A DNA stretch of 64,000 nucleotides from Zygnema cylindricum (lineage: Eukaryota; Streptophyta; Zygnematophyceae; Zygnematales; Zygnemataceae). A program made the position numbers and the translations under genes. The notes under the pieces are model-generated. The model searched no databases and was not told the DNA's origin. It was given only the letters and a program-made list of their open reading frames with translations. The DNA lies in NCBI GenBank assembly GCA_037447655.1, contig JBBHKE010002445.1, positions 62,001 through 126,000 on the forward strand. The letters are read 5' to 3'. Shown here piece after piece: positions 10,691 through 61,747 of this stretch; position 1 is the stretch's first letter, and each line of letters opens with the position of its first letter.

Positions 10691-10849
10691 CTGACAAAAA
10701 AAAGAAAAAGACAAACATCGGTAAGAATAAATATATAAGAACAACAAATAAGATGAAAAAAAAAGCAAGAAAATTTGTCAACGATAAAAGGAAATCATGT
10801 GGGTTGATTATAAGAATATTTACCAATACTGAACAAAGTAAAAACCTCC

Positions 10850-11154
10850 CTCCCTCTCTCTCTCCCTCTCGCTCCCTCTCTCTCCCTCTGTCTTTCCCTC
10901 TCTCCCTCTCTCTCTCCCTCTCTCCCTCGCTCTCACTCTCTCCCTCTCCCTCACTCTCCCTCTCCCTCACTCTCCCTCTCTCCCTCTCCCTCTCTCTCCC
11001 TCTCTATTCTCTCTCTCCCCCTTTCTTTTCCCCTTTCCCGCTCTCTCCCTCTCTCTCTCCCTCGTTCTCTCCCTTTCTCTCCCTCTCTCATTCCCCCCCT
11101 CTCCCTCCCCCCTCTTCCCCTCTCCCCCCCCCCCTCCCCCTCTCCCTCCCCCTC

Positions 11155-11191
<37 letters not shown>

Positions 11192-11935: not shown

Positions 11936-11962
11936 TTTTCCTCCTATCCCTTCCCCCCTTAC

Positions 11963-12027
11963 CTTCGAATTTTGACAGCAATAAGCTCCTCCTCCCTCCC
12001 CTCCTTGCCCCTCCACCAGAGCCGCCA
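11963..12027 (-). CDS. Candidate upstream exon of the coiled-coil protein gene
   Basis: A 65-base block with an ideal T-run acceptor (AG at 12028-12029) and an ideal donor AAG|GTAAGG at its other end. Spliced to 10690 it joins in phase, giving ...AYCCQNSK followed by DAERYRQIR. The intron would be the GAGGGA microsatellite. Earlier exons were not found. Support is from splice-site quality and phase only. Confidence 0.33.
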
Positions 12028-12028
12028 C

Positions 12029-12045
12029 TAAAAAAAAAAAAAAAA

Positions 12046-12089
<44 letters not shown>

Positions 12090-12117
12090 AAAAAAATAAC
12101 AAAAAAAAAAAAAAAAA
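12029..12117. repeat. Poly-A tract (poly-T on minus strand)
   Basis: Nearly uninterrupted A for about 88 bases with a few C and T. It could serve as the polypyrimidine tract of the candidate exon just left of it, or be the tail of an old retroposed copy. Confidence 0.7.
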
Positions 12118-31300: not shown

Positions 31301-31860
31301 CAAACTCCTTTTCATCTAGGACAGCTGTTGAGACTAGGTTCTTGCTAAGTTGTGGAATGTAAAGAACGTCTGAGAGTGTTACAATTGAGGCCTTTCCATC
31401 AACTAGAACCTTCAAGTCAACAGTTCCAACAAGACTTGTGGTTTCTACTCTACCATCTCCGTACTCTATCTCAACTGTTGGGATCTTTCTCAGTTTAGTG
31501 AACCACCGCTTATCTTTGCACATATGCATTGAAGCCCCTGAGTCTATGATCCACCCATCCTCGGGTGGATCCCTCTTACCTCCGAAAGCACACTTTTGTC
31601 TCCGTGGAATATCGACATGCTTTTCAGTGTTTTTCGGATTAAGGAGAAGCTCCTCAAGCTCCTCTTCAGGTTCAGTTTTTTCTTCCACTTCCTCATCAAG
31701 AACTTGAGTCAGGAAAGCCTTTTTCTTTCCTCCGTCCTTTGAGGTTCCTTGACCATCTTTCAGTCGAAGATCTGCAAGTCTGACACAATCTGCCATGTAG
31801 TGTCCCGGTTTCTTGCAGAAGTGACATAATCCTCCTCGAGAAGTTCCTCTCCCCTGTCTA
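28341..31860 (-). CDS. pol: Copia-1 pol: protease, integrase, reverse transcriptase, RNase H
   Basis: Open for about 1150 codons from 31796, and in the same frame back through the gag zinc knuckle to about 31860. In order: aspartic protease with DSGASMH (about residue 85 from the Met at 31796); GAG-pre-integrase HHCC zinc region (WHKRLGHVH, CSGCAQGK); integrase core with HTDVWGP, RSDNGKEY and NPEQNGVAE; an acidic linker; reverse transcriptase with AFLHGELEEEIYM and catalytic YVDDLLVL (about residue 820); RNase H with WSDASYGD, EAEYMA and DNQAA. It makes the enzymes that mature the particle, copy its RNA and insert the cDNA. No internal stop is seen. The stop lies about 13 bases before the 3' LTR. 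Confidence 0.95.
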
Positions 31861-32779
31861 TCAAATCTGCCACCCCTCCTTGTCCTCTTCCACCAAAGTT
31901 TCGATAGGGATCTTTCCCTCTCTCCTCATCACGCTTCCGCCAATCAGCTCCTGCAGACAATGCTTGAACACTTGGACTCCCTCTCCTAAGCTCTATGGTG
32001 ATTTCTTTCACTAAAATCATTCCCACTGTGTCATCCCAATTCCAATTGCTATCTCCTATGTCCTGCAATCGGTTAATGATATTCTCATACTCTTCAGGTA
32101 GTTTTATTATTAGTGTGTTCACTCTTTGTCTCTCAGACCATGAGTTACCTGCACTCTCTAACTCTCCAAACAATGCTCCTAAATCATTGCAATAATTATC
32201 CATACTTCCTCCCTTATAAGTATAAGCTGCAATCTTATTTTCTGCCAACTGTTGCTGCTGCAATGATCCACTCTTATATTTGTTAACTAGTGATATCCAA
32301 ATCTGAGATGAAGATTTGACATGCATAAGGGGAATGGCAATGCCCTTTGCTACACTTTTAAGAATTAAGAGCTTAGCAACCTTGTCTTTGTAGTTCCACT
32401 TTTCATACTCCGATCTTTCGGTCTGAACCCTTGTCACCGTTTTTGGTGGTGCTGCTGCCGGTATCGCCTTCGGCAATGGTGTCACTTGAGTTGCAACTCC
32501 TCCCTTTTCTCCTTCCATGACAATCTCCTCTCCTTCCTCATCTTCATCCTCGGTGATGGTGGCAGCTGTTTTACCAACTGTAGAGGCGGAGGTGCCAGAA
32601 AAACGTGTCCCTCCAAACCCAGGTGGAGGTGGGCATCGAATTTGTCCAGACACTATGCCCCATAGATGCTTCTCAAATAGTTCTCCCTCCATCATCATTT
32701 CCCAATAAAGAAAGTCTGATCCATCAAATATGGGCACCCTAGAGGGTGGGCCCATAACCTGAAATTCTGTGGTCTCCAT
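31760..32779 (-). CDS. gag: Copia-1 gag (frame shifted near its end)
   Basis: Frame of 339 codons beginning with an ATG at 32777-32779, inside the 5' LTR. It reads through the primer-binding site as QVMGPPSRVPIF. Capsid-like region with YWEMMMEGELFEKHLW, SSQIWISLVNKY, QQQQLAENK and VNTLIIKLPEEYENI, as in plant Copia gag (UBN2 type). The expected nucleocapsid zinc knuckle CHFCKKPGHYMADC is at 31785-31826 but in the pol frame. The frames separate at the G-run near 31870-31885, where one G appears to be missing. Copia elements usually use a single gag-pol frame, so this is probably a one-base mutation or sequence error. Confidence 0.92.
   Translation of the reverse strand: METTEFQVMGPPSRVPIFDGSDFLYWEMMMEGELFEKHLWGIVSGQIRCPPPPGFGGTRFSGTSASTVGKTAATITEDEDEEGEEIVMEGEKGGVATQVTPLPKAIPAAAPPKTVTRVQTERSEYEKWNYKDKVAKLLILKSVAKGIAIPLMHVKSSSQIWISLVNKYKSGSLQQQQLAENKIAAYTYKGGSMDNYCNDLGALFGELESAGNSWSERQRVNTLIIKLPEEYENIINRLQDIGDSNWNWDDTVGMILVKEITIELRRGSPSVQALSAGADWRKRDEERGKDPYRNFGGRGQGGVADLIDRGEELLEEDYVTSARNRDTTWQIVSDLQIFD
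32745..32759 (-). promoter_or_regulatory. Copia-1 primer-binding site, initiator tRNA-Met anticodon arm
   Basis: GGTTATGGGCCCACC directly follows the 5' LTR end TTTCA. It is the reverse complement of the anticodon arm of plant initiator tRNA-Met (GGTGGGCCCATAACC), not of the tRNA 3' end. That points to priming by a tRNA half-molecule, as known for Drosophila copia and yeast Ty5. Confidence 0.85.
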
Positions 32780-33649
32780 TGACCCACAGAATGAGCAGCC
32801 TATGTAAAGCCTCTAGGATAATATTTGCCCCTTCTACTTTCCCGCTGAATAAGCGCCGCCCAGGCACACAAATATTCAGACCACTCTCACCCTTGTGAGG
32901 ACAAGACTCCCCTGAGTCAAACGCAAAAAGAATCACTGAATTTGCTCACCCGAGCAGTAAGTTATGGCTGGTCAAAGATGACCTTTATAGTTACAAGCTC
33001 TCTTAGAGAGAGAAGTACCTAAATATTACTAAGTCTCGGTCTGCCTACTCACGACTACCTACTATTAAACCCTAGTCCAATAGGAACACTATAAAGTACA
33101 AGAAGGTACAATGGGCGATGTACTTATTGTACAACTATTGTACGACAAGGTCTACAAGGTGACACCTGTCATATCGGAAGCCATGGTTCCTCCTCCCATC
33201 TTCTCCGGTATCAAATAATGTGGCGCCACGTGGCACCGCGTGACGCTATATCCGTATGCCGCCAAAAAGCTCACTTCGCGTGGCGGCTATAATGCCGGCC
33301 GTCCGATCAAAACATATTTTACACGGTTCAGATTCGCGTACATGCAGAAATTGCTCCTTTTGGTTAGTCTGCTGTTAATTAGCTGTTTCGTTAATGTTTA
33401 TATATTTATGAAACCCGTCACGTGTATCGTTTCGTAACGCCTTAATGGTTAATGCGTTAGGCTACAAAGAATCTAGAGGTCACGGGTTCAAACCTGACCT
33501 AGGCATCATTTTAGCCAAAATACCCTTAACTGCAAAAACTGCCACTTTCTAAATATGGCGGCAGCCATGGCGCGCCTTTGATCCTTACTCTCTTTCTTTA
33601 AAACAAAACTAAATAGGGAAGTTAACTATTAATTACCTCTTTTCAACAG
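32760..33649 (-). repeat. Copia-1 5' LTR
   Basis: 890 bases, TG...CA, almost identical to 27438-28327. Its last 20 bases (minus strand) contain the gag start codon. The tRNA-like plus-strand segment lies at about 33434-33507. Confidence 0.95.
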
Positions 33650-38971: not shown

Positions 38972-40073
38972 TGTAGAAATTAATAGTTTTTTTAAAGTAT
39001 TTTCTAGGTCTGAATAGAAGTATAGAAAGAAGCTGAGGCAGTCTACCTCTAACTTCTCTCTCCAACTCTCAAACTTGTCGCAGTCACTGAGAAATTGGAG
39101 AGGAAGCTAGAGCCATGGCAACCTAGGCTATCCAGAGGTTTACGGGATATAAATATTAGTTTATTTATGATTACGGAAGTATTTACTAAAATATATGTGC
39201 CACCTCCAGGATTAGATCTTGGAACCTGCCGGCCGGTAAACAGCTGGTAGACGGTAGCTTTAACCATCCAGCAAACAGCTGGTAGACGATAGCTTTAACC
39301 GTTAAGTCTAGAGATAGTGTTACGTATTGTAGGGTTTGATAATAAATTAAACTTTAATACGTAAGATAGTTCATTTAACTGAAACAGTTTACGAGAGACA
39401 TAGATCCAGTAATGTAATTTACGGATTACGTTACAGATAAGAAACCAATACCGCGCATTTATTTATTTAGTAAAACGAATACCGCGCATGTATTTATTAC
39501 GGCTACGATTAAATGTGAATTTAATCGGACGGCCGGAATTAACGCCGAGATCGCGGAAGAGGATTTCGGCGGTTTGTGGTCATTGCCACATCGGATGACA
39601 CGTGGCGGAATGACATTGGATCGCGACATCTCCGAGGATTAAAGGAGCGAATCCGGACATCCCACGTGTTGACAATTAGGCCATGTTGTACAATGTCCGT
39701 ACATAAAGTACATCGGCAGTTGTACTTTTGTGTACGCAACTGTAATCTGATTGGCTCCGTACATCAGTAGATAGAGTCTGTGAGAGAGATAGGACTTTGA
39801 AAAAAATTAGAAGATAGGACCCTCTCTCCCAGAGAGCTTTTGTACAAAAGGTTAACTTTGACCCTCCATAACTTACTGCTCAGGGGAGAAAATTCAGAGA
39901 TTCTTTTTGCTATTGACTCAATTGAGTCTTGCCTTTATAGGAGTGAAGGTGGTCAGAGTTATTGTCTGCCAAGGTGGCAGTTGTTTTTGCTGAAACACAA
40001 AGGGGTCAGGGTTATCCTAGAGGCTTCTTCGAAGTTGTCCACTCTAAAGACTTATGGAGGTCTCAAAGTTTCA
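38972..40073 (+). repeat. Copia-2 5' LTR
   Basis: 1102 bases. A 35- to 40-base block (AAACAGCTGGTAGACGGTAGCTTTAACC) is duplicated within it near 39235-39305, next to the antisense tRNA-like segment. This accounts for its extra length over the 3' LTR. The gag ATG (about 40054) lies inside the LTR. Confidence 0.92.
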
Positions 40074-41073
40074 GGTTATCGGCCCACCCTCTAGGGTACC
40101 AATCTTTAATGGAACTGGCTTCATATATTGGGAAAGTATAATGATAGGAGCTCTATGCGAAAAAAGGTTTTGGGGGATAGTGAGTGGACGATTGGGGCGT
40201 CCGTCAAGTCTTAGAATCCCTCCAGGGTTTGGAGGAAGCAAATTCACCAGGAAAGATGATCCACCGTCAACGGAGGAATCAAAGGAAGGAGAGGTGGTGG
40301 ACAAAGGAAAGGAGAAGGAGACGACCACACCAACAGCAACTGGTTCGACATTCATGTCTCCTATTCCGAGGAACGAGGAGAATGATACTGAAACCTGGGA
40401 CTTCAACAATATGGCGGCAAAGCACTTCATCCTACGCCATCTCACTCAAGGACTTGCATGTCCTCATTTGCAGGTAGAAAAAGCATCCGATCTTTGGATG
40501 GCTCTCATAGAGATGTACCGAAGTGGTACGATTCAACAACAACAGTTGGCTGATCAGAAAGTTAAGGAGTATGTATACAAAGGGGGAAATATGTTGGATT
40601 TTTGCAATGAGCTTGCTACACTCTTCATGGAGTTAGAGAGTGCGGGAAAAGATTTTAGTGAAAAAGAAAAGGTTAACTGTTTACTGATGAAGTTACCCGA
40701 TGAGTTCGAGAACATAGTCAATCGTGTGCAGGACTTGTCGGACTCAAGGTGGATATGGAACTCAATGGTAGGGATGATTCTCGTTCGAGAGAATACGATT
40801 GAGATCCTAAGGGGAGGAAAGAGTGGCTAGGCCTTGGCAACTGTGACCGATTGGAGGAACAAGGATTCCCGGAAACCGGTCGGAAAATATGGGGGGAGGG
40901 AGCAGGAAAATCAAACCGACGAGTTTGGACCAAGGGCTCCCAAAGGATTATGTCATTTTTGTAAGAAACCTGGGCACTATTTGGCAGAGTGCACTAAACT
41001 AATCGAGCTTCGGTCAAAGGAGGGGCAGACCGGTGGTACCCCGAGAGGAAAGAAAAAGGCCCTTGTGACATAG
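40054..41073 (+). pseudogene. gag: Copia-2 gag
   Basis: Gag frame from the ATG inside the LTR: MEVSKFQVIGPPSRVP, then YWESIMIGALCEKRFWG, SDLWMALIEMY, QQQQLADQK and VNCLLMKLPDEFENI. A stop at 40828-40830 (TAG where Gln is expected) interrupts it. The continuation carries the zinc knuckle CHFCKKPGHYLAEC. Same family as Copia-1 gag, with clear sequence divergence. Confidence 0.9.
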
Positions 41074-44000
41074 GTACATGAGGCGGAATCCGAGGACAAA
41101 GACGATGAGCTCCTTTTAGATGAGGAGTTGGAGGCGAAAAACGAGGTCGAAATTCCACGAAGGTAGAAATGTGCTTACGGTGGATTGAAAGGTGAAGCAG
41201 GCTAGATTGTAGATTCAGGTGCCTCCATGCACATGTGTAAAGATAGGCACCTGTTCACTAAGATAAGAAAGTTTCCCACAATAGAGATAGAGTAACGGGA
41301 TGGGACGGTAGTCACCACTACTCTTGTAGGATCGGTAGATCTGAAAGTGTTAGTAGAAGGAAAGACATCCATAGTAACATTCTCCGATGTATTGTTTATT
41401 CCGGAGCTAAACAAAAACCTCATCTCCACATCAGTATTAGATGATAAGGGTTTTTTTACTAGCACTAGGGAAGGAGTCTTTATTGCTAGTTTTGAGGAGG
41501 ATGTCTATTTCATTGCTGAGAAAGGTAGCCATGGGATGTTTAGGCTGGTTTTAAGTAATGAAATGAAGAAACTTTATTATGCTGGTGTTCATGATATTAT
41601 GATGTGGCATAAGAGGCTTGGGCATGTGAATCTAGATAAGTTAAGAGAGATGAAAAAGACAGGAGTGGTGGAAGGGATTAAGTTCAGTGAGAGTGATAGT
41701 ATAAGTGATTGTAGTGGATGTGCTCAAGGTAAAACACACAGATTATTCTTTCCTAAAACATCCACCTATAAGGGAGAAAAAATTCTAGATCTAGTACACA
41801 CACATATTTGGGGACCGGCTAGAATGCCCTCACCGGGGGGGAAGAGATTTATGATGACTATAACTGATGATTAGTCTCGGTATTCTCGGGTGTATTTTTT
41901 GAAAAACAAGTCAGAAGCTGAGGATTGTTTTAGACAATATAAAGCGTGGAGCGAAAAACTCCATGAAACTCCAATCAAGAGAGTAAGGAGTGACAATGGT
42001 GGGGAGTATACTTCTAACCTGTTTGAGGATTTTCTGAGGGAAGATGGAGTCCAACACCAAAAGAGAGTTCCAGAAAACCCGGAACAGAATGGGGTAGCTG
42101 AAAGGTTAAATAGAACACTAAGTGATAGTGCTAGAAGTATGTCGTCAGATAAAATGATTGGAAAATGGTTTTGGGCAGAAGCAATGAACTGTGCTAATTA
42201 CCTCAAAAATAGAGTTCTTACTTCAGTTATAAAAGATCAAACACCTTATGAGAGATGGACAGGCCGGAAACCAAACATATCTCACTTAAAGGTTTTCGGC
42301 AGTCAAGTTTTCAGTCTAGATACAGATCGATCCAATTGGAAGCTAGATCCTAAAGGAAAACCGGGATACTTATTAGGATATGATGAGGATTTTAAAGGAT
42401 GTAGAATTTACGATCTAAAAAGGGAAGATATAATCTTAGTAAAGCATCTAGTAGTTATGGATGAAAGTCTGTGGATCCCTTCAAATATACAAAGTCAGTA
42501 AAAATCAGATTTGAGTCAAAAAATTCCGATGACTTTGAGCTTCCTAACTATCCAGGTTTTAGAGAAGATGACATTCTTGCAGGTACAAATCAGACTGAAA
42601 TGGACTTGGCGGTGGAAACTCCAGTGACAACTCTACCCGAAGCGGAAGACGTGGTGGAAATTGATTTGGAATCAAGGGATAGGGGAGAAGCCGAGATTGT
42701 TTGAAAGAATCCACGAGAACCATCTATTCTGGCCTCAGATTTTGAGGGTGGAAGGAGAAGTAGCAAAAGACTGCAAGAAAAACAGGTTAATAACAAGGTA
42801 AATAAACTATCTCATCATGATGAACCTCAAACTTATGGAGAGGCGATGACTTGTCCAGAAAGAAACCGGTGGAAGACAACCATCAATGAGGAGATGGCCT
42901 CAATTATGGCAGCTGATACTTGGGAGCTGGTGGATTGTCCACCTAAACGAAAACCAATCGGTTGTAAGTGGGTTTTTAGATTAAAACTGAACCCAGATAA
43001 CACAATCGAGCGCTACAAGGCCCGATTAGTGGCAAAGGGATTTACACAAAAGGAGGGAATTGACTAAGAGGAAACCTTTGCCCCGATGGTCAGATTTCCC
43101 TCCGTCCGCATACTTCTCAGCCTGGCAGCAGCGGAAGACATGGAAGTGCACCAAATGGACATCAAGAGAGCCTTTTTGCATGGAGAATTGGAAGAGGAGA
43201 TCTTCATGAGACAACCCGAAGGGTTTGTGGAGGAAGGAGAGGATAGTAAGGTATGCCGACTGATTAAATCTCTTTATGGTGTGAAACAGGCGCCTCCAAA
43301 GTGGAATAAGAAGCTTGATGAGTTTCTTACCAGTTTGGGATATATCCGGATCAGCTCAGATCACTCAATCTATGTTTTCGAAGATGAGGAAGGTTGTATA
43401 TTTATTGCAATTTATGTTGATGATTTGCTTGCTTTAAGTAAATCAATGGAAAAAATTAATAAACTGAAAACCGATCTTAAGGGGAGATTTGAAATAAAGG
43501 ATATGGGGGAAGCCAAATATATTTTGGGAATTCAAGTAGAGAGAGACCGAAAAAGAAAGACTATAAGATTGACTCAAAAGGAAGCAATAGGGAACATGCT
43601 TGAAAAATTTCAAATGGATAAAGCTAATAGTTGTACAACTCCAATGGAGTTGAAGAAGGGAAGTGAGGGGAGTGAGGAAGAAGGAGTCATAGTCTTAGAC
43701 GAGAAATTATCTCCTGAAGAACAGAAGTTCATGCAGACTATTCCTTACAGGCAAGTAGTGGGAAGCCTAATCTATTTTATGAATTGTACCCGGCCGGATT
43801 TAGCTGCAGCTGTAGGAGTGCTGAGTAGAAGTCTGAATGCTCCCACTAAGAGGGATTGGGAGACAGCTAAGAGAGTCCTTAGATATTTGATAAGAACTAG
43901 GGATATATTTTTGCATTTGGGTGGGGAGAATACTGACATCACTACTTGGAGTGATGCCAGTTACGGTGATGCTCTGATGAGGAGATGCACTTCTGGATAT

Positions 44001-44402
44001 GTATTATACGTGGGTGATGGGGCTTGCTGTTGGAGTAGCAAACAGCAAAAAGTTATTGCTCAGGCCACCATGGAGGCTGAGTATATGGCCTCTTGCTCTG
44101 CTGTAAAAGAATTTTTGTGGGTCAAGTCTTTGCTTGGTGAGCTTGGTCACCTTAAGAGTGGTGTGCATAATTTTTTTTTGTGATAATCAGGCAGCAATCG
44201 CTATTTCTGCCAATCCTAAACATCATTTTAAAGCCAAACACATGGACATCAGACTCGGCTTTGTTAGAGAGAAAGTAGAAAACAAAATAATCAGTTTAGA
44301 GTACCGACCAGATAGTGAGATGGTAGCAGAGATGATGACCTAACCGGTGCCTTCCCCTAAGCTTATTTTCTGCAGGGAGAAGTGTGGTCTGAAATTAAAG
44401 AT
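41074..44402 (+). pseudogene. pol: Copia-2 pol, inactivated
   Basis: The Copia domain series is complete but broken: protease DSGASMHM (41213-41236), HHCC region (WHKRLGHVN, CSGCAQGK), integrase core (RSDNGGEY, NPEQNGVAE), reverse transcriptase (IAIYVDDLLALSK), RNase H (WSDASYGD, EAEYMASC, DNQAA). Stops interrupt it at 41071, 41164, 41203, 41293, 41872, 42702 and 43064, among others. Frames change near 42475 and near the T-run at 44170. Several stops sit where Trp or Gln is expected. Confidence 0.92.
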
Positions 44403-50172: not shown

Positions 50173-51117
50173 TGTCATGCCGTAAAACGTCAGCAGGTAT
50201 TGTGATTAAGTCATGTACTAATTGAAGTTTCGGTGACGTGAAAGGTACATACCCGAGGGTACAACTAGAGATTCGTACGGGACAAAGGTCGAAATATACT
50301 CTCGTACGGAACTACGGGAACACAATGTGAAATCAGCGTGGAACTGGACCATGCTACGGCATCAGACGTCACGAATTCAAGCGGCCACAAACGTGACAGG
50401 TGTCTGAAGTCATGAACCCATGGAGGTTCATGCATCATTTTTGCTTAGCTTAGGGAGGGTTTTTATCCTCGAGGTGTAGATGTAAGGCAATCTGAGGCGG
50501 CCACGCAGCGGTCGTCTCTTGAAACTGCCAGCGTTTTAACATAGAAACCTGCCTGCTCAGAGACATGTAGGAATTAGTGTAACCGTACGGATTAGTGAAA
50601 GCATAGGATAAATGCCATTTGGCCAGATAAAAACTTTTGCAAATTATGTACGGGAATCCAACATTGGAAGGTTGTCGTTTTTTGGCAGGCTTTTTCTCGG
50701 GATTTGTCGAACCTTGTGATTTTAGGGTTTTTCACCTAGATATTTAGTGACACGCTAATTTTTGAGTTAGGGTTTTTCCTTTTTCAGACCCATAGTATCA
50801 TGCTAGTAATTGTCTCTGAGCTTCTCCTTCTCTTTGTACTAAGACCTTACCTAATCTACCGGCGCAAGCCAACTTGCAAGGTTTTTCCTCCAGACCATCT
50901 TCTACTTGCTGTGATTTGTGGATTGTGTCTGTGGACTTGGTGTTTTCTTGCTGTCTGGACGTTGACCGTACACGCTGGTACTCACCTTGCCTAGCCTTGG
51001 AGGAATACCGGTTATCTCGGCTCTTTCATCCGGCTAAGGAAGGGTTCTTACTAGCTGATTGGACTCCTATAGGGAATATTGATGACTTCAGGGCCCAGTG
51101 GCTACTGTCGCAAATAT
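50173..51117 (+). repeat. Gypsy 5' LTR
   Basis: Matches 60570-61501 from TGTCATGCCGTAA to CTACTGTCGCAAATAT with scattered differences. The true LTR may extend further right if the downstream copy is truncated at 61501. Contains GGTTTTTATCCTC and GAATACCGGTTATCTCGGCTC blocks. No gene. Confidence 0.85.
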
Positions 51118-52380
51118 TCCAGTTCTTAATTTGTTTCTTTCTAATTTTCTTTATTCCTTGTGTCAATTGTTTTCTTTCTGTCTAGTTTATTTTCATTCGT
51201 TTCATTTCCAATTTTCTTTATTCTTGGTGTCTTCGGTCTAGTTTGTTTTAAATTTGTTGAAATAAAAAAAAAGGAAAAAAAAAAGTATAAATTTTTTGTT
51301 ATGCTTTGATTTCATTTTATTGTTCGCCTACTTTGTTTTTAAGTTGCTGAATTTCAGATTGTTGAACTGTCCGGTATCGTTTTCTCTTCTTTCTTCCTAC
51401 CGGATTAACTCACTCAGAAAACCTAGAAAACTTAAAAACTCATAAAAAAAAAAAAACCTAAGAAAAATATATATAAATATTAGGTTGCACGAATTATCAT
51501 GAAAATTATCATTGCTTTATAGACGGGCAGAGCGTGGTATAGTGCTGATAGGCGTGCCCTAACAAGCTACTAACTACGTTGGTATTTTGAGCTGCGATCT
51601 CTTCTCGACGATTCGAAATTGGAGGGAGGTTGGAGCATCGCTAGGAGACCTTACAGACCGCTTCGGGTGAGTAATCGGGTCCTTGTGGTTGCAGGCGCAT
51701 GATAGGTTGTTAAGCGCGATAACCTAGAGGGGTTAAAATCCGACCGAAGGCCGTACCTTCATTTTCGCATAGGCATTGTGGTTGCATTTTCTGTAGATCT
51801 GACCGTGATTGGTGTTGGATAGCGACTTCTTGTCTATTACATCTGGCTTTGTTGGGCCAGGATTATTTTTTGTTTACTACATCTGGCCTTGTGGGCCTTG
51901 AATAGTTTTCTGTTTTATTAAATCTGGCCACAAGTGGCCTTGCATTGGTGACATGTTTCTTCTTCGAGTGGCTTGAAGTGACTTTTGTGGGATTGCTTAG
52001 ATCTGGCCGTGAACAGCCTTGTTAGGGGTGTCCACGATTAGACTAACCCCGGTGATAGAGAATAGATCAAATCGTTTACGGGGGTAATTGTTTACGTGGG
52101 TGCTTGTTTGCGTGAATTTGAATACTTCCTGTGTGATTTGATTATTAAATCTCGCGGTGGGCATTTGCACACTGACCCTGAGTAGGGTCCGACATCTAGT
52201 TGCATCCGGATAAGACGACTGTCAGTTTACATTGCAACAGACTGGAACAATTTACCGTTTCTAGCTGGTACCACTAGGAGCTCCAGTCTTTACCGTGGAC
52301 CGGATCGGGATTTGATTCCTGACCGCTCACCTCCTGTCCAGCTTTTAGATCATACTGGTCATTCTGCTCTGTCTTAGCTT
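51118..52380 (+). other. Gypsy 5' leader with repeated ATCTGGCC hairpin motif
   Basis: T-rich, then an A-run near 51425-51480, then a non-coding leader. Between about 51785 and 52025, four units of the form ATCTGGCC...GGCCTTG occur, each able to fold as a short hairpin. No frame is open across the leader. Confidence 0.55.
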
Positions 52381-52499
52381 ACGGGTTCACCCGACTCTAG
52401 ATCTGGTATTACCACTACATATAGATCTACATCATCTGTCTCCTCATCCTCTTCCCATAGCTGGGGGGAAGATTCGGATATAGACTCCTTTGATATCCG

Positions 52500-53858
52500 G
52501 GATCTAAATCTACTACCTTCGCTTTTGCCTTTGAGCGGAAATATACACACAAACTCAGATTCCTATTTTGGGGATATGGCCTCGCCCATAGACACTGGAG
52601 GAGGTAGAAATCAGTTTTGTTTTTCCGGTCTCAAGGACACTATCTCCTTGTCACATTTTCGAATGCTTTTTAATACCGAGATGCGCGATCTCGCATTCCG
52701 GTATTAAGACCGTTATGATTTACGAGTTGCTTTTTTGTTACTTGGGTGATATCTTAAGGGATCTGCCCTATCTTTATATACACGGAAATATACGGTTATT
52801 TGTGCTATGACAGAAATGGCACCCGCATATTCTGGATCTTTAGTCATAACAAGCAGTCCAGAAATTCTTTTCCAAGCTGCGGTACCCGCAGTTTATGACT
52901 CTGCAGGTAACGAAATTTCACCGGAAATACCTGAGGTTCCTCATCAGTTCGCTGTTGCGGCTCGGGTAGCGATTCCAGCTCGCCTTCCAATGCTGGTTCC
53001 ACTAAGGGATCCGGTATCGTTTGTCTTCAGTTTATTATAGGAAGAGTATCGAATGTAGAATCCCGATCATGTTAAAGAACAAATGAATTTTGAACGTCGC
53101 CTAGGCGAAACCGCTCCCGCATTGCGAGCACGTATGGAAACATTACGTGAAGCACTGCCAGATATCATGTCAGACGCAGAGGCAGTTCAAAAATTTGTGG
53201 GGCAATGTCCTACCGAATCTCGACGTTTCATTCAATGCCATTTGACTGAGGCATATGGCCTCAAATTTACCTTCGAGCAGGCTGCAGAGTATGTCATACG
53301 GTATGAAATGCAGACCAGCTGGTGGGACGCACATGAGCGACCCAAATCTTCTCCTAATGCAAACCCGAATCTTAATCCTAATCCACGCAACCCATGGCCC
53401 AATCCGAGACCCCCAAGGACTCCAGCCATGGGAACATTACCAACAAACCCTAATGTTCGTATATGTTTTCGATGTGGTAACACTGGTCACGACGCACGTA
53501 GCTGTCCGGATAAGACCGCCAAATGTACTCATTGTAATCAAACGGGTCATTTTGTACATCGATGTCGCATTAAAAATCCCGATTTGAGTTATCAAAATCA
53601 AATCAAAAACGGCGGTATACTTGCTCGCTCGGCATAATTGGTCACTTCACCCAAAGGAGTGGAGAAAGACAACCCTCCAAAAATCAGTAGGAGGGAACGA
53701 GAGAAAGCCGAGATGCAGGCCATTGTAGCGGCTATGATGAAGGAGCAATTTGCCGCGCTTATGGCGCAAGTCAAACCGTAATTAACCCGAATGGCTCGAA
53801 CTGTGGTCCACATGCCCTCTTTTGCTGACGATCTCTTCGGAAGTCCACTGTTCAATAG
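52500..53858 (+). pseudogene. gag: Gypsy gag with two CCHC zinc knuckles
   Basis: Gag-like region from about 52525 (LSHFRMLFNTEMRDLAFRY, then stop), continuing in 52807-53040 and 53083-53637. A helical capsid part (RARMETLREALPDI, AVQKFVGQCPTESRRF) is followed by an Asn/Pro-rich linker and the two knuckles CFRCGNTGHDARSC and CTHCNQTGHFVHRC (about 53464-53570). The nucleocapsid zinc knuckles would bind the genomic RNA. Stops at 52706, 53038, 53056, 53635 and 53779 break the frame. Beyond 53637 the frame reads on through a Lys/Glu-rich stretch to the Copia LTR insertion. Confidence 0.85.
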
Positions 53859-54861
53859 TGTTGAAATAAGTAGTTTTTATATTTTCTAGGTCTAAATTAA
53901 TTAGCGAAAAACATATAAAGAAAATGTAGGCAGCCTGCCTCCATCTCTTCTCTCTTGTTGTAGTCACTGAAGGAGAGAGAGAGAGCGATGGAGCCATGGC
54001 TGCCTCAGCTCCATAGGAAGGACTAAAGAGTGACTTTAAGTTACTCTCAACAAAAGGTTGAGTCTGGTAAGACTCGAACCCCTGACCGACAGACCGCGGC
54101 GTAGCCGTTAGCTCTAACCAGTCTGTCGTAGAAGTCCGTTAAGAGATATAGGGTTTCATTAATATTTAAACTATTCTGTAATACATAAATCATTTAACTG
54201 AAACTCTTTACGACACACATAGATACACTTTTACGAAATGCGAAGTACTGTACTAAATTGAAACAAATATTTCGCAAGTATTTATTACGGTTCAGATTTC
54301 ATTTCGCGTCAAATTTAACGGCGCACATCATCGCCGAAATCTCGGAATGGTCACTTTGGCATTTAGTGACGTGGTATGACTTGGCGCCACGTGGAGAGAT
54401 GACATTCGGTCGCGGGAATTCCGAGGAACGTACGGACGAGTGGAAAATAGACACGCGTCCGCCTAATGGCCTTGTCGTACAGAGGCCATACAGAAAGTAC
54501 ATCGGCAGTAGTACTTTCTGGTACTACACAGTGTTCTGATTGGTTCGTACGGGCAGTAGATAGGGGTTGTGAGAGAGAACTAGGAAAAACTAGGACTTAG
54601 GAGAAATCAGGTAGATAACCCTCTCTCTCTTTGAGAGTTTGTATAAATTGGCATCTTTGCCACCCTATAACGTATCGGCTGGTTGGCCGTTTTCAGTGAT
54701 TTTTTTTGCAACGTACTCAGGGGAGTCCAAACTACACAGGGGTGCAGTCAAATTGTCAGTTTGCATTTTTGGGTAGCAGTGGTTGTGGCTTGAAGTGGGT
54801 TAGTTAAATAATATCTGGAGGCTTCCTGAATTCTGTAGTCCAATGGAGGACACAAATTGCA
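53859..54861 (+). mobile_element. Solo Copia LTR inserted in the Gypsy gag-protease linker
   Basis: Starts TGTTGAAATAAGTAG and ends ACACAAATTGCA; flanks AATAG (53854-53858) and AACAG (54862-54866) are a 5-base duplication with one transition. The Gypsy reading frame resumes after it. The LTR core matches the other Copia LTRs (TTTTCTAGGTCT, GAGCCATGG, CCCTCTCTC). It carries the most tRNA-like antisense segment, at 54065-54135. Confidence 0.88.
54065..54135 (-). other. tRNA-like segment with A and B boxes, antisense in solo LTR
   Basis: On the minus strand: A box TGGTTAGAGCT (54110-54120), an anticodon-arm-like stretch, and B box GGGTTCGAGTC (54071-54081). Both boxes fit the RNA polymerase III internal promoter. 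The acceptor stem does not close, so this is a tRNA-derived relic rather than a tRNA gene. Confidence 0.6.
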
Positions 54862-55560
54862 AACAGTGGGCGGCTTAGTTTAATGGGACTCTCGATCATA
54901 ATCGTGAGTCTGTATCCATTAACAAGCGTATCCCACTATCATTTGCTAAAGAACCCCGCTCCCCTATTCTAGAAACAGCTTCAAGCATCACCGCTGAAGC
55001 ATTAACTACTTTAGAGAGGAGCATACAAGACACATATAATGTCAAAGAACGGTTGTCCATCCTGTCCACCATGCTTCGCGAGTTAGATAATAACGAAAAA
55101 ACTATAGATCTAACTCTTTCAGCAGTTGCGTTACAAGCATTACAAAACCATCGTAATGCTTTCTCCCTTCAAGCTGTTACTCTTGAAGAGCGATCTAGCC
55201 TCACTCCTCACATCAGTTTTCTAGATAATAAATTGGGCGTGTTCACAGTTAATGGGTTTGCTCCGGCACTTCCTTTCATGGATACAGGTGCAAAGCCAAT
55301 TATCCTCGGTTCTGATTTTGCCATCAAAATAGGTCTTACATCAGATAAGCTGCAACCCACTACCACACGTCTATTGACTTCCGCAGGTACCACAAAACCA
55401 GTCCTCGGTATTACGATAGACCCAATCTGTTTTCAGTTTCAGAGTCAGTCAGCGACGGATTTCGCAGAAATTTATGCTCACGCCTTGGTCACCAAGTGTA
55501 GTGACTATGAATGCTTGGTTGGTCAAGACGTTATCTTCCGAGTTGGGGGGGGGTTGATAT
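54862..55560 (+). pseudogene. Gypsy aspartic protease
   Basis: Frame from the solo LTR (one TAG at about 54875, where Gln would fit) into the open frame 55053-55673. Catalytic FMDTGAK with the Asp codon at 55281-55283, followed by LGSDFAIKIGL and CLVGQDVIF. This is a retropepsin-type protease with D-T-G, which would cleave the Gag-Pol precursor. The frame is lost at a G-run near 55545-55553, where a one-base change separates it from the following methyltransferase frame. Confidence 0.85.
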
Positions 55561-55924
55561 GCATGATGATCAAACATTTTCGTACAGACCTAACAATTTT
55601 CCGGAACACAAAATTTGCTTACCCCTTATCTCGGCTCGACAACCCATGCCTACTACGGCCCATTCGGCGCTGATCTTGCCACCCTATGCCGCAGTTGGCA
55701 TAGGTGCAGACATCATTGAATCTCTAACAGCTGATGAAATCTCACCAGATTCCCCGAGATTACCAGAATTATTTAGGACACCCGGATATACCATTCACTC
55801 TTCAGATTTTAACCGACTATATAAATTTACTATACCAATTCCTTTATCTAGTATTCTAGATCCACCCATTAGTGATATAGATCCTTCCGGGTTCTTGCCC
55901 ATTAAATGGACACCGGTCAATTTA

Positions 55925-56890
55925 CAACCTCACCAAAACGGTCTCGTTATCTTAGACCATTTTGCAATAATAGGGACTTCACTTCTCTATTGCCTTCCGA
56001 ACGGTCTTCTGAAAAAGCATTACTATTGCGTAGATAACGACCCGTTGGCCAGACGTGCTCAGTTGCACCACTATCAAGTCTTGCACAAAAAGTATCCTCA
56101 TCTCTTACCCCAGTCCGATTTTCACGATATGCATTCGGCGTTGCCACAAGATATCCGGCTAATAGGAAATCATCATTTAATGGAATTGGAATCAATTGAT
56201 CTCCTCTTTGCCGGATGGGAATGTTAAGGTATATCTAGGGCCGAGAAAGGTTTAGGTCTCGCAGATCCGCTTACTAAGCTGTTCTTCAAGGTGGTTCGTC
56301 TGATCCATTTCTTCCAAAAACTAGATCATCTTTTAGGGTACGTCTTAGAAAATATAGCATCTTATAATGATCCCCAACCCACGGTTCTAGTTGATTACAA
56401 ACGTATCAAATCATTGATTGGACCACCGCTAATTATCGATGCCGCACGCCACGGTTCGTTGGCCCATTGGGTTCGGTCCGAATGGACTAACCTGGTGGAC
56501 ATGGGTTGGCTCCGAGAGGCTAACCTCGCTGTCCGACCACCTAACTTTTCCATTCACGATGCACTTCTTCCATTTCATAAGGTCAGACATGTATACAGAC
56601 AGACTATCTTCCGCATTTGGTCTTAACATCCCGGGCCAATCACTACATGCAGTGCCTACACTAGTTTCATATCCACATTCTTACGCATACTCCAACAATG
56701 GATCGGGCATGCTTCAGAATACTCATACAGGCAGCTTAAGAGAACCTACATCCCCAGAACGAGAACATCTTTTACATTTCATCTCAGGCACCACTGCTGC
56801 TCCGGGACTCACCGAGAGGCAGCGCTGCACCTTACTTGGTCGTGTCATGGATCCCCAATCACTGTCATTTGTCTTAGGCATGGGGTTCGC
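55925..56890 (+). pseudogene. Cytosine-5 DNA methyltransferase domain inside Gypsy pol
   Basis: Lies between protease and reverse transcriptase. Motifs of the C5-methyltransferase fold occur in the right order: motif I LVILDHFAIIGTSL (cofactor binding, about 55943-55987); a CVDNDPLAR acidic loop; motif IV GWEC with the catalytic Cys codon at 56222-56224; a GLGLADPLTKLFFKVVRLI segment as in PCQ-loop followers; motif VI VLENI (56342-56356); motif VIII AHWVRSEWTNL (56462-56494); then, in the next frame, REPTSPEREHLLHF and motifs IX/X TERQRCTLLGRVMDPQSL (about 56810-56865). It would methylate cytosine using S-adenosylmethionine. Damage: TAA at 56225-56227 where Gln of a Cys-Gln pair is expected, Trp for Arg in motif VIII, and a frameshift near 56585. 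Which methyltransferase class it came from is unclear; motif VIII looks DNMT3-like, the Cys-Gln more like Dcm/DNMT1. Confidence 0.85.
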
Positions 56891-57254
56891 CGCTGGTCGA
56901 TACGCACAGAACCATCCGTCTCAATCAGCTGGGGGGGGGCATACACCATTCAGACACACACCTTCCAAGTCCTCACCTTCTCTTCGGGGTACAATTTTTC
57001 AGCTTGGCCTTTTTCCTTTTCCCGCTAAGTCTGACATAGATCACACTATTTATGATTTTTTGGAACCTAGTCACATGAGTTGGTCTCTCCCAGCATACAC
57101 GGCCACTAGATCTCAAGTACCGGCACGGGCGTCACCACACTGGACAGCTGCATTTCCGTCTAGAAGTTGGCACCACGCAGTAAATTGTTTGCATCAGCTT
57201 CCTGTCGAGTATGAGTTGGGTCACTCCTTGATAGCAGATGAACAGCTAGCATTT

Positions 57255-58490
57255 GCACAAGCCATGGAAGCCATGACCATTAACACTCCTGAAAAACCGA
57301 CATGGAAATTCGGAACTGGACTAACCGAAACTGAACACGAACTGTTAGATAAAGTCATAAACCGAAACGTAGACGCATTTGCTTTCTCCATGAAAGACTT
57401 AGGTCGACACACCACTTACAAAATGTCTATTGACTTGGAAGATGACAGACCTATATTTAAGCCCAAGCATCGTCTATCCGAAACCGAATGGGAATCTGTA
57501 GACAAACGATGCGCAGAGTTAGAAGAGGCAGGTCTGATCTATAGGTCCGATTCCACTTTTGCGGCACCCACCGTCATGCCTCGTAAAAAAGACGCGGAGG
57601 GGAATTTTACAGAACGTCGCATGTGCGGGGACTATCGAGAACTGAATTCACGAACAATCCAGGACCGACATCCAATGCCGTTGGCCGAGGACATTTTTGA
57701 TCACGTGGGCGGAGCTAAATATTTTAGCATCTTAGATCTGCGACAGGGATTTAATCAGATCGAAATAGAGGAAAAAGATCGACACAAAACTGCATTTTGG
57801 GGTAGTGACGGACGTTGGGAATGGGCGGTTATGCCTTTTGGACTGAAAAATGCACCGGCGGTATTCCAGAAAGTCATGGACTCAGTCTTGGGGGGATGTA
57901 AGTTTGCCCGTTGCTATATTGACGATCTAATCATCGCTTCAGCCTCTATAGAGGAACATGCAGTGCATATAGAGTGGGTGTTGAAGGAATTAAAAAAGGT
58001 AGGACTTAAATGTCATCCTGCAAAATGTACCTTTGGGGCCGAAGGGGTTCCATACCTTGGGCACTTTATCTCATCTGAGGGCATTACTCCGCTGGAAGTC
58101 AAAGTGGAAGCAATTAGTAAACTACCGGCTCCAACTGATTTGACTAGCTTGCGTGCATTTCTGGGGTTAGCCAATTATTACCGACGGTTTGTTCCTAGTT
58201 TCAGTACACTTGCATCACCATTAAATGAACTCTTAAAGAAATCTGTCCCGTTCACGTGGGGACCTTCTCAGATCGAGGCATTTCAGGGATTAAAGGACGC
58301 ACTGTCCACTGCTCCCATCCTTCGTCCACCGAATCATAAGTTACCATTTTGCCTACAGACAGACTTTGGTAAGCCAGGTATTGCGGCCATCCTAACTCAG
58401 CGTGAACTCACAGGTGAAGAATATGTGGTGGCTTATGCCAGTCGAAGCAACAACCAAGCGGAATCAAATTACAGTAGTTATGGGGAGAAT
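57255..58490 (+). pseudogene. pol: Gypsy reverse transcriptase
   Basis: Open within the frame 56439-58589. Motifs in order: FKPKHRLSETEWESVDKRC, APTVMPRKKD, RMCGDYRELNSRTIQDRHP, YFSILDLRQGFNQI, WAVMPFGLKNAPAVFQKVMD, catalytic YIDDLIIA (57915-57938), CTFGAEGVPYLGHFIS and LRAFLGLANYYRRFVPSF. It copies the element RNA into cDNA. The domain itself is uninterrupted; the frame is lost downstream in RNase H. Confidence 0.95.
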
Positions 58491-58720
58491 GCCTTGCCGC
58501 AGTTTGGGGTATTGTGCATTTCCGACATTACCTCTATGGCAAGCCTTTTACCCTTCTTACTGACCATCAACCGTTGCATTGGCTCATGACCAATGACAAG
58601 CTATCCGGCAAATTAGCCCGTTGGGCTCTTATTTTACAGGAATATGATATGGAAATAATTCACCGACCCGGGCTTCTCAGCTTGAATGCGGACGGGCTCT
58701 CCAGGAATCCTTTGCCCAAC
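58330..58720 (+). pseudogene. Gypsy RNase H (frameshifted)
   Basis: PFCLQTDFGKPGIAAIL, VVAYASRSNNQAESNYSSY, then a one-base shift near 58485 into the frame carrying HYLYGKPFTLLTDHQPLHWL and RWALILQEYDMEIIHRPG. It removes the RNA strand during reverse transcription. The position normally holding the second catalytic Asp of the Gypsy RNase H start (TDAS) reads TDFG. Confidence 0.88.
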
Positions 58721-58889
58721 TCCATTGATAATGGGGTACGACAGGATTTTGATGGCGAAACGGTTGCCTCCCTCTCGGCGGGAGCGCATCTGATCTACAG
58801 TTTTTCCGCACCTACATATCACAAAACCGAACACGATCCATGGCGGGACAGCCCTTTAATCCTTTTCCTGTCCACTCAGTCTTTTCGGG

Positions 58890-60130
58890 CGGGCACCGTA
58901 CCCATGGAAGAGGAGCGTGTTCGTAAGAGAGCCCAGAGTTACTTATGGATGGGGGGCTCACTTATTCGTCTTCTCTCAGATGGAAGTCACCGGCACGTCC
59001 CACGACCGACGGAACGACTATCACTTATCAACCAAATTCATACTGACCTTGGACACTATGGCACCAAACGGACTTTGAGCTTGGTACAGGCACGGATTGG
59101 TGGTCCGGCATGCAGGCTGATGTGGCGGCTGTGTTGCAGGAATGCAGCACCTGTGACCGGCTACGAACGTCATTTTCTAACCGACAGACCTCCCTTCAGC
59201 CCTTGCCTATTCGGGGTCTCTTTTACAGGTGGTCGTGTGATCTTGCAGGTCCCTTTCCCATTTCGCGAAGGGGCAAGCAGTACATTATGATTATGATCGA
59301 AAATTTCAGCAAATGGGTGGAAGTTGTAGCCCTTCCACAGAAAACTGCCAGACTCACCACGGCAGCTTTCAAAGAGCATGTGCTTCTCCGATACGGAGCC
59401 CCCGCAGAAGTACTTACCGACCAAGGAACCGAGTTCCGCGGTGAATTTCAGGAGATGTTGGACGAGGCGTTAATCGATCACCGGCGGACGAGCCGAGATC
59501 ATCCTCAAGCAGACGGTTTGGCAGAGAGAGCTGTACAAACCTTTAAGCGTGCTTTGCGTAAACATTGCTTGGAAAAACAGATTACAGTGTGGGATGAATC
59601 ATTGGGATATATTGTCATGGGTTATCGCATGTCTGTACAGGCCAGTCTGGCAAATTTCAGCCCTTATTATGTGTTATTTGGCCGAAAACCTCTACTAGGT
59701 AGGAATGTACAGAAAGCCGCGAGCTTACCTCTACCTCTTATGTCTGATTCCCTATTTTTGGAAGAACTAACTAACCGAGCGTTGCTTTTCGCTAGAGAAA
59801 TGCCTATGGCTTTTGAAAATTTACAGATCGCCCAACATCGCGACTCCTTACGGTTTGCAACGACTCGCAGTGGCAGTTACCGGCCACAACAAAAACCCTT
59901 TCGGGTGGGGGATTACGTTTATTTGCGACGGCAAACTTTTGACACACTCGATACGGATGTGTCAGCTCACATTTTGAGGATAACCAAAATCGACGCCAAT
60001 GGATTATTAAGCTTACAAGGGGCTGACACGCGAACTTTGCGCGAGCATTCGAAAAATTGTGCTCCTTGCTATCTACCTGACCTTTCTCACAGCATGGACC
60101 CGTGGCGGATGCCGATTACCGAGGCCACTG
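58890..60130 (+). pseudogene. Gypsy integrase
   Basis: HHCC zinc region: HTDLGHYGTK followed, after a shift near 59100, by CSTCDRL. Core domain: Asp at 59238-59240 (SCDLAGPFP), Asp at 59419-59421 (VLTDQGTEF) and Glu at 59524-59526 (DGLAERAVQ), the D,D-35-E triad. A C-terminal region follows (KPFRVGDYVYLRR, HILRITKIDANG), the GPY/F-like module of Ty3/gypsy integrases. Most of it lies in the open frame 59110-60309, which runs on into a PHD finger without interruption. Confidence 0.93.
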
Positions 60131-60132
60131 AG

Positions 60133-60267
60133 TGCCAATTATGCCGGCGATCTGATGGAGAAACAACAATGCTGCTCTGTGACTATTGCAATCTGGGATT
60201 CCATATGGAGTGTCTCGTTCCACCTCTGCACACTATCCCGGCTGGACAGTGGTTTTGCCACGGGTGT
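60133..60267 (+). CDS. PHD finger at the integrase C-terminus
   Basis: In frame with the integrase (about residues 342-386 of that frame). Spacing is the canonical C4-H-C3: CQLC, LLCDYC, FHMEC and WFCHGC, with the conserved Trp two residues before the last Cys pair. PHD fingers usually read the histone H3 tail, often its lysine 4 state. The position is where chromoviruses carry a chromodomain. The frame ends at 60309, shortly after. No damage is visible in the finger. Confidence 0.93.
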
Positions 60268-60307
60268 CGCGATCTACCAGCTGTCCTGACCAGCTCCTCC
60301 GCAGGCT

Positions 60308-60329
60308 AAGGAGCTGGGGGGGGGGGGAA
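60308..60329 (+). promoter_or_regulatory. Candidate Gypsy polypurine tract
   Basis: TAAGGAGCTGGGGGGGGGGGGAA directly after the pol stop is the only strongly purine-rich run near the 3' end. It lies about 240 bases before the repeated LTR start at 60570, farther than usual, so its role is uncertain. A homopolymer of this length is also prone to sequencing error. Confidence 0.4.
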
Positions 60330-60570
60330 TTCCATCCTTACTTACCTGATCTTGTTTTGTTAATTTTCCCTTGCTAAATCCATGTGTTCGGAATAATTTG
60401 TTTCTTTGAGCATATTCATTTATTATTTCTTGCAGTATATATTCTTTGTCCTCTGATTGTGGTCACAATACTGTACATATGTAATGGTCATTCATTTTCT
60501 GGTGTTTTTTGGCGACCCACGCGGGATGTGATGCATGCCATTCACGGTTGTACTGTCATGCACGACAGCT
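60325..60570 (+). repeat. 246-bp direct repeat, first copy (Gypsy 3' untranslated region)
   Basis: Appears identical to 61502-61747 (offset 1177), including a shared 60-codon chance ORF. It runs from the end of the G-run to the first base of the 3' LTR. Confidence 0.9.
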
Positions 60571-61501
60571 GTCATGCCGTAAGACGTCGGCAGGTATTAT
60601 GATTATATCGTGTACTAATTGATGTTTCGGTGACGTGACAGGTACATATCCGAAAGTACAACTAGAGATTCGTACGGGACAAAGGTCGAAATATACTCTC
60701 GTACGGCACCATGTGGAATCAGCGTGGAACTGGACCACGGTACGGCATCAGATGTCAGGAATTCAAACGGCTACAAACCTGACAGGTGTCTGAAGTCATG
60801 AACCCTTGGAGGTTCATGCATCATTTTTGCTTAGCTTAGGGAGGGTTTTTATCCTCAAGGTGTAGATGTAAGGCAGTCTGAGGCGGCCACGCAGCGGTCG
60901 TCTCTTGAAACTGGCAGTGTTTAAACATAGAAACCTGCCTGCTCAGGGACATGTAGGAATTAGTGTAGCCGTACGGATTAGTGAGAGCATAGGATAAATG
61001 CCATTTGGCGAGATAGTAACCTTTGCAAATTACGTACGGGAATCCAACATTGGAAGGTTGTCGTTTTCTGACAAGCATTATTCTCGGGATTTGTCGAACT
61101 CTACTGTTAGGGTTTCACCTAAATATTTAGTGACAGGCTAGTTTTTGAGTTAGGGTTTTTCCTTTTTCAGACCTATAGTTTCATGCTAGTAATTGTCTCT
61201 GAGCTTCTCCTTTTCTTTGTATTAAGACCTTACCTAATCTACCGGCGCAAGCCAGCCTGCAAGGTTTCCCTCCAGACTGTGTTCTACTTGTCGTGGTGAA
61301 CGAATTGTGTTGTGCGGATTTGGTGTTTTCTTGCTGTCAGAGCGCTGACTGGGCGGTCTGGTTCCAGTCCCGTCCGGCTTTGTGGGAATACCGGCTATCT
61401 CGGCTCCTTCAACCGGTTAGGGAAGGGTTCAGGTCCGCTGGTTGGACTCCTGTAGGGAATATTAAAAGACTTCAGAGCCTAGTGGCTACTGTCGCAAATA
61501 T
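60570..61501 (+). repeat. Gypsy 3' LTR
   Basis: Matches 50173-51117 to CTACTGTCGCAAATAT and then jumps back to the 246-base repeat. Probably truncated at the right. Confidence 0.85.
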
Positions 61502-61747
61502 GGGAATTCCATCCTTACTTACCTGATCTTGTTTTGTTAATTTTCCCTTGCTAAATCCATGTGTTCGGAATAATTTGTTTCTTTGAGCATATTCATTTAT
61601 TATTTCTTGCAGTATATATTCTTTGTCCTCTGATTGTGGTCACAATACTGTACATATGTAATGGTCATTCATTTTCTGGTGTTTTTTGGCGACCCACGCG
61701 GGATGTGATGCATGCCATTCACGGTTGTACTGTCATGCACGACAGCT
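61502..61747 (+). repeat. 246-bp direct repeat, second copy, at the Gypsy/Copia-3 junction
   Basis: Perfect-looking copy of 60325-60570 placed after the LTR instead of before it. It ends at the exact base where the LTR starts in the first copy, and Copia-3 sequence follows without a gap. Confidence 0.9.

Follow-up and report, generated by a model that had tools for sequence, protein, structure and literature searches.

A DNMT3-type methyltransferase domain in a decayed Ty3/gypsy-type retrotransposon of Zygnema cylindricum

Retrotransposons that carry their own DNA methyltransferase (DNMT) were described by de Mendoza et al. (2018; PMC5890265, cited here throughout from parts of its text), and the literature searched gave no other report of a DNMT-bearing retrotransposon. 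KnitGypsy-Dnmt3 of Klebsormidium nitens has a gypsy Pol with a DNMT3-type domain in non-rearranged motif order, split repeats like those of DIRS elements, and purifying selection. SymbioDIRS-Dnmt3 of Symbiodinium likewise has a DNMT3 domain in Pol and repeats in the order A-coding-B-A-B. Its domains methylate CG in yeast, and methylation of the complementary DNA (cDNA) was proposed (de Mendoza et al., 2018). The stretch analysed here, termed the window, consists of 64,000 nucleotides from the alga Zygnema cylindricum (contig JBBHKE010002445.1, positions 62,001 to 126,000). It holds a decayed, mosaic copy of a large Ty3/gypsy-type family that carries a DNMT3-type C5-methyltransferase between protease and reverse transcriptase (RT), and there is very little room for doubt about this identity and architecture.

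The Zygnema element can be compared with KnitGypsy-Dnmt3 by its published description only. Both have the DNMT at the same place in Pol, an unrearranged DNMT3-type domain, A-coding-B-A-B repeats and purifying selection. A preliminary description of this DNA had proposed a gypsy element with a DNMT between protease and RT, and had recommended comparison with the published charophyte retrotransposon enzymes. Pfam scans bear out the order, the enzyme class and the insertion point, and the comparison is apt in view of the shared features. In two relatives from the same genome (L039 and L011) a single open frame spans protease, DNMT and RT, which puts the DNMT within the gypsy Pol frame, and Ka/Ks is under 0.2 (pooled 0.165). 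The repeat plan is complete in the window and in the C1344 copy, and C1407 has the B-A-B end, but C783 has a single B. Copy number is above the K. nitens expansion, as far as that expansion is described in words. A DIRS element was considered and rejected. SymbioDIRS-Dnmt3 carries a tyrosine recombinase, whereas the element here has a DDE integrase (rve), and Pfam scans of the pieces gave no PF00589 row (tyrosine recombinase).

The methyltransferase domain and the family that carries it

The DNMT3-type methyltransferase, motifs I to VIII, is at positions 55853–56626 on the plus strand, with matches in PDB, Pfam, NCBIfam and PHROGs. The frame 55853–56623 reads LDHFAIIGT (motif I) at about 55952–55978, VDND at about 56030, ENI at about 56348 and VRSEWTN at about 56471–56491. 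GWEC, at 56213–56224, is followed directly by a TAA stop (56225–56227). The sequence TERQR...MDPQSL is in a different frame from motifs I–VIII, at about 56811–56860. The C5-methyltransferase motifs that had been reported to occur in order are thus found in the sequence, and their order is the canonical, unrearranged one.

Profile searches had been proposed for the separate reading frames, and here the outcome is divided. The separate frames show no match to PF00145 at E ≤ 1, an outcome that answers to one half of the refuting condition set in the preliminary description; it is attributed to the internal stop and the frame change, whereas the domain read with an X at its single stop does match (9e-5; 22.5 bits, curated cut-off 22). 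The sequence read in this way also matches phrog_116 of PHROGs (6e-8) and NCBIfam dcm (4e-5, far below the cut-off of that model), and its best PDB match is DNMT3A (0.0015). Stop-free relatives in the same genome match PF00145 at 3e-12 to 3e-14. Judged by motifs and profiles together, the matches of the window element are beyond chance. A structure prediction from the single window sequence gave a predicted local distance difference test (pLDDT) score of 40 and was not used.

The C-terminal part of the DNMT (56627–56900, plus strand; motifs IX–X by position) is in the other frame, within the open reading frame 56433–58589, and is the weakest part of the DNMT evidence. The piece alone has no match in PDB, NCBIfam or PHROGs, and in the profile search the alignment of the C-terminal motif region to DNMT3A scored −3.5 bits. 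The part was identified by aligning it with relatives in which the frame continues unbroken. Support also comes from a second family, introduced below, whose match to phage methyltransferases extends over 97% of the query. The window DNMT is a relic: it has one internal stop, and its frame changes between motif VIII and motif IX.

Relatives were searched for in 352.8 Mb of sequence from the genome that contains the window, and natural copies were set against one another segment by segment. At least 148 places have a DNMT of the window type (149 rows, two of which are one copy; 1404 candidates), and identity to the window DNMT goes down to 60% among the places listed. At least 123 PF00145 matches were listed from 782 candidates, 91 of which do not overlap with the listed window-DNMT places. 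Two families can be distinguished, family 1, to which the window copy belongs, and family 2; they are about 42% identical in the DNMT. Trees of the DNMT and of RT, made from 30 copies with both domains, each split off family 2 at 100/100, with the remainder weakly resolved. DNMT sequence is upstream of RT in all 30 of the closest RT loci, the window included (from at least 143 rows; 3195 candidates), and no DNMT-less relative is among these 30; one of them, L105, has the C-terminal part of the DNMT only.

The gypsy-type order of protease, DNMT, RT, RNase H and DDE integrase is found by Pfam scans in the window and in relatives. In copy L039 (C1407) a single open frame runs from a zinc knuckle through protease (0.0028, below cut-off), PF00145 (3.1e-12) and RT to RNase H, and a frame that overlaps this one encodes an integrase with a PHD finger (2.2e-10). 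For the family-2 copy L040, the Pfam scan gives PF00145 at 1.1e-13 together with RT, RNase H and integrase, and also a protease match (2e-4) and a weak PHD match (0.0033) that both stay below their cut-offs; it shows no zinc knuckle match. Copies L101–L107 share one RT match score and, over most of 3.8 kb, are 95–99% identical to L101; this similarity marks them as a recent burst. The DNMTs of L103, L104 and L106 were considered as 5′-truncated, but this was ruled out, and frame changes were found instead. In L015 and L017, repeat B follows shortly after the DNMT and RT is without a match; both are likely internal deletions that keep the DNMT.

Kinship, selection and the catalytic loop

A profile was built from nine natural rows, with L005, L028, L031 and L001 left out of the alignment because of stops. 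Compared with solved structures, it finds DNMT3A (1.9e-16), DNMT3B (1e-13), HhaI (2.8e-6), DNMT2 (7e-4) and DRM2 (0.0015, a partial match); no DNMT1 row appears in this PDB search at E up to 1. The nearest solved enzymes are DNMT3A, 3C and 3B. The canonical motif order and this proximity are both those of a DNMT3 enzyme, and DNMT3-type is a safe class assignment for the retrotransposon enzyme at the level of sequence. A DRM-type enzyme was rejected, as the rearranged order is not seen: motif I precedes IV, VI and VIII, and the DRM2 match is partial. The DNMT3A and DNMT3B of animals have the same motif order, and the retrotransposon enzymes are 27–29% identical to them over about 200 amino acids. 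There are also differences. The animal enzymes have a PCN loop and family 1 has ECQ, and Pfam scans of the element show no ADD or PWWP match; a PHD finger is present on the integrase instead.

In a tree of 20 rows, the eight retrotransposon rows form one clade (100/100). Together with human DNMT3A and the enzymes of five phages, this clade makes up a group (99/95) to which HhaI and five further viral rows do not belong. The retrotransposon clade is beside, not inside, DNMT3A plus phage (98/94), with DNMT3A as the one eukaryotic DNMT3 and on a long branch. The phage enzymes (from Pelagibacter phage HTVC134P, Croceibacter phage P2559Y and three others) are stand-alone genes. Viral contigs searched with the window DNMT sequence gave no match; searched with the nine-row profile they gave 28 loci, phage-type by sequence. 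The same profile gave 98 stretches in bacterial and archaeal genomes, none of which was confirmed. The source of the retrotransposon DNMT may be viral as well as a host DNMT3.

Selection was assessed by the ratio of nonsynonymous to synonymous substitutions (dN/dS; Nei–Gojobori method), from non-independent pairs of best matches that are not a random sample and include decayed copies. Pooled over 30 family-1 copies, dN/dS is 0.165 for the DNMT (404 pairs; median of pairs 0.177), 0.234 for RT (299 pairs), 0.258 for protease (428), 0.278 for the linker (177) and 0.295 for the C-terminal part of the DNMT (433). For nine copies that are stop-free in the searched part of the DNMT, the values are 0.129 for the DNMT (28 pairs) and 0.294 for RT (21 pairs). 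The DNMT evolves under purifying selection, and this selection is at least as strong as that on RT.

The catalytic loop separates the two families. Family 1 has Glu instead of Pro before the catalytic Cys (PCQ to ECQ) in 32 of 32 copies, the window included, several of which are close relatives. Glu is also present in a more distant subgroup (L103, L104, L106 and L107). Family 2 keeps the Pro in five of five copies, and so do all 29 phage or viral loci with a readable motif (33 scanned, in a search that allowed both Glu and Pro); among the five phage enzymes of the tree, the pattern read the loop in HTVC134P alone, with Pro. GWEC is thus a family-1 trait, and family 2 and the phage relatives that were read have GWPC or SPC. 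Other catalytic residues of family 1 are well kept: the Cys in 32 of 32 copies, N167 of motif VI in 31, E166 in 29, and the motif VIII arginines in 27 and 24.

The DNMT part of the 32 family-1 copies contains 32 stops, 18 of which are TAG, mostly at CAG codons, as expected from C-to-T decay. Q125, which adjoins the catalytic Cys, is a stop in six of the 32 copies. As a stop hot-spot this is too weak to claim, since positions in RT reach 4 of 27.

Layout of the window copy, its repeats and its PHD finger

The whole element is at 50173–61747 on the plus strand, as are its parts below unless marked as given without strand, and has TG...CA ends. Self-comparison shows the A-coding-B-A-B plan, and the C1344 copy has the same plan. 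Repeat A1 (50173–51117) is older and has 86.8% identity with A2. The gag gene with a zinc knuckle (52861–53826; PF00098 1.3e-6 and comparison with L039) has stops at 53038, 53056, 53635 and 53779. Between gag and protease is an insertion, given without strand (53859–54861), that resembles a solo long terminal repeat (LTR) of Copia type with TG...CA ends. It has 5-bp flanks AATAG and AACAG (four of five positions match), is absent from L039, and shows 66–79% similarity to the repeats around a Copia element at 40–44 kb. An aspartic protease piece follows (54879–55673; PF13650 0.0015 and PF13975 0.0055, both below cut-offs; DTG motif seen by eye).

Downstream of the DNMT are RT and the first part of RNase H (57609–58586; PF00078 1.7e-30, PF17919 5.8e-20), then in another frame the remaining RNase H and the start of the integrase zinc-binding domain (58478–59290; PF17917 3.9e-18). 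The DDE integrase core, which ends in a PHD finger, is at 59047–60309 (PF00665 1.8e-12, PF00628 1.9e-10). A G-run at 60316–60327, seen by eye directly before B1, is a possible polypurine tract. Repeat B1 (60325–60570) is 100% identical to B2 (61502–61747) by self-comparison, and A2 (60570–61501) has one mismatch in 932 compared with A1 of the C1344 copy. The Pol of the window copy is broken by stops at 56225 (DNMT) and 59044 (integrase region), and by frame changes near a G-run at 55545, between DNMT motifs VIII and IX, and in RNase H.

Compared with L039, the window copy has 83–96% identity per 150-base block up to about 56.7 kb and 99–100% over the next 4.4 kb. The breakpoint is in the interval 56662–56811, given without strand, where one 150-base block has 0.91 identity to L039 and the next 1.00. 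In addition, the window RT equals that of L011 over 269 codons, whereas the two DNMTs differ at a dS of 0.36. On the basis of the identity break at about 56.7–56.8 kb and of this contrast, the window DNMT is in an older 5′ part, and the 3′ part is young. Recombination, gene conversion or template switching may have produced the mosaic, or it may be an assembly join. In the last case the window copy would be an artefact and not a biological recombinant. The breakpoint is single and sharp, and the flanks match different repeats without a target duplication: the left flank is an exact match to other repeats up to 50172, and Copia sequence lies to the right. Elements of this kind commonly undergo template switching and gene conversion, however, and an assembly join is considered doubtful, if not lightly set aside. 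The reading of the family is independent of the window copy in either case.

The repeat plan is based on two complete copies (the window and C1344) and one 3′ end (C1407). The C1344 copy has A1, coding region, B1, A2 and B2, with no mismatches in 931 positions between A1 and A2 and none in 242 between B1 and B2. Its ends are TGTC on the left and GACA on the right, with TTGG on both sides, a 4-bp target duplication; TG...CA ends and a short duplication are features of Ty3/gypsy elements. Two complete LTRs flanking the coding region are another such feature, and in their place the split repeats are found. The inner junction of this copy, CACGACA-GC-TGTCATGCC, is that of the two element ends joined with GC between them. 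C1407 has no A1 in the 3.5 kb that were read upstream. C783 has A at the left and the single B at the right, with flanks that do not match; no target duplication was seen at C783 or, by eye, at the window copy. Among the titles and abstract openings surveyed, no element is described that combines split direct repeats with gypsy and integrase.

The PHD finger (about 60133–60267 in the window) ends the integrase in all four family-1 copies with the 3′ end available (the window, L039, L043 and L045) and is weak in L040. The fingers of the window, L039 and L043 are 100% identical, so there are two independent family-1 cases. The nearest solved fingers in PDB are those of PHF12 (1.7e-16), BAZ2B (2e-12) and a KDM5-type lid (5e-12). 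Several of these fingers read the unmodified histone H3 tail. The end of the integrase is the place of the chromodomain in chromoviruses. In titles and abstract openings, no element was found described with a PHD finger on a gypsy or LTR-retrotransposon integrase. For KnitGypsy-Dnmt3, the parts of the main text cited do not mention a PHD finger, a Glu-Cys-Gln loop or a target duplication (PMC5890265). The PHD-ended integrase, the Glu in place of the PCQ proline in family 1 and the mosaic window copy were not found in print.

Possible mechanism and alternative explanations

The enzyme is probably active in the family. As a part of Pol, the DNMT would enter the virus-like particle together with RT and integrase and would methylate cytosines of new cDNA before or at integration. 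That new cDNA is its main substrate has a chance just short of even. The inner B1–A2 junction could be a template for restoring the element ends. The PHD finger of the integrase may read the histone H3 tail and help choose the landing site; for this role as an integration guide the sequence leaves the chances evenly balanced. Identity and mechanism taken together, this explanation is somewhat favoured. In its favour are the profile matches, the position of the DNMT upstream of RT, the low dN/dS, the conserved catalytic residues, the split repeats and duplication of C1344, the PHD finger and the precedent of the SymbioDIRS-Dnmt3 domains.

Several points weigh against it. Observed/expected CpG is 0.87 in the element and 0.90 in the window, 0.71–0.93 over 32 family-1 loci and 0.64–0.73 over five family-2 loci; the family-1 element is not CpG-poor and bears no trace of lasting CG methylation, which argues against such methylation of family-1 copies. 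CpG depletion was found solely for SymbioLINE in the 2018 study, and the KnitGypsy-Dnmt3 domain did not methylate in yeast, a result that the authors call inconclusive (PMC5890265). Family 1 is without the PCQ proline. Of the seven copies of the recent burst, L103, L104 and L106 retain RT but show frame changes next to motif IV, and a fourth, L105, has lost all but the C-terminal part of its DNMT. Finally, three of the PHD copies are not independent, and the target duplication is based on one copy.

The loop and the CpG content also fit a first alternative, in which the fold is conserved for a role that is not 5-methylcytosine on element DNA; family 1, with its Glu, may bind RNA or cDNA, methylate RNA or have an altered specificity. 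Glu is invariant in family 1 where family 2 and all readable viral relatives have Pro, and there is no CpG depletion. The catalytic Cys, E166, N167 and the motif VIII arginines are kept, however, and selection on the DNMT is no weaker than on RT; this alternative is rather unlikely. A second possibility is action in trans, with host chromatin or competing elements as the target, or a slowing of the element that benefits the host; effects on host benefit and on the host methylome were raised as possibilities in the parts of PMC5890265 cited. The two Copia elements in the window are CpG-poor (0.42 and 0.52) and the element here is not, but two elements is the whole sample, and host methyltransferases would explain them equally. 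Moreover, the position of the enzyme in Pol makes a location in the particle more likely, and this second possibility is improbable. That the DNMT is a passenger, captured once and decaying without use, is highly improbable: stops are present in the DNMT of the window and of many listed copies, and frame changes in the burst copies, but dN/dS is below that of RT in both the pooled and the stop-free sets, stop-free DNMTs are found in long open frames, and the DNMT is present in two families as far apart as these.

A more far-reaching reading is conceivable. Family 1 could be a self-contained writer and reader, in which the ECQ enzyme marks cDNA with a pattern other than ordinary CG methylation and the PHD finger of the integrase directs the marked copy to particular chromatin; split repeats and DDE integrase would then represent a replication cycle between those of LTR and DIRS elements. 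This reading is speculative and, as a whole, distinctly unlikely. It can be said that split repeats, DDE integrase and target duplication pose a replication puzzle in any event. This large second set of DNMT-gypsy elements, one copy of which has mismatch-free repeats, would make testable why a transposon carries its own silencing mark. For such tests there are two families that differ in the catalytic loop, numerous copies that can be dated, and an integrase with a chromatin-reader domain.

Elsewhere in the window, the two Copia elements are at 28341–32812, with an open frame of 1194 amino acids, and at 40048–44183; in their low CpG content both differ from the sequence around them. A long low-complexity tract at 10024–12172 has overlapping open frames on both strands and adjoins a low-complexity frame of 1025 amino acids at 7700–10777.
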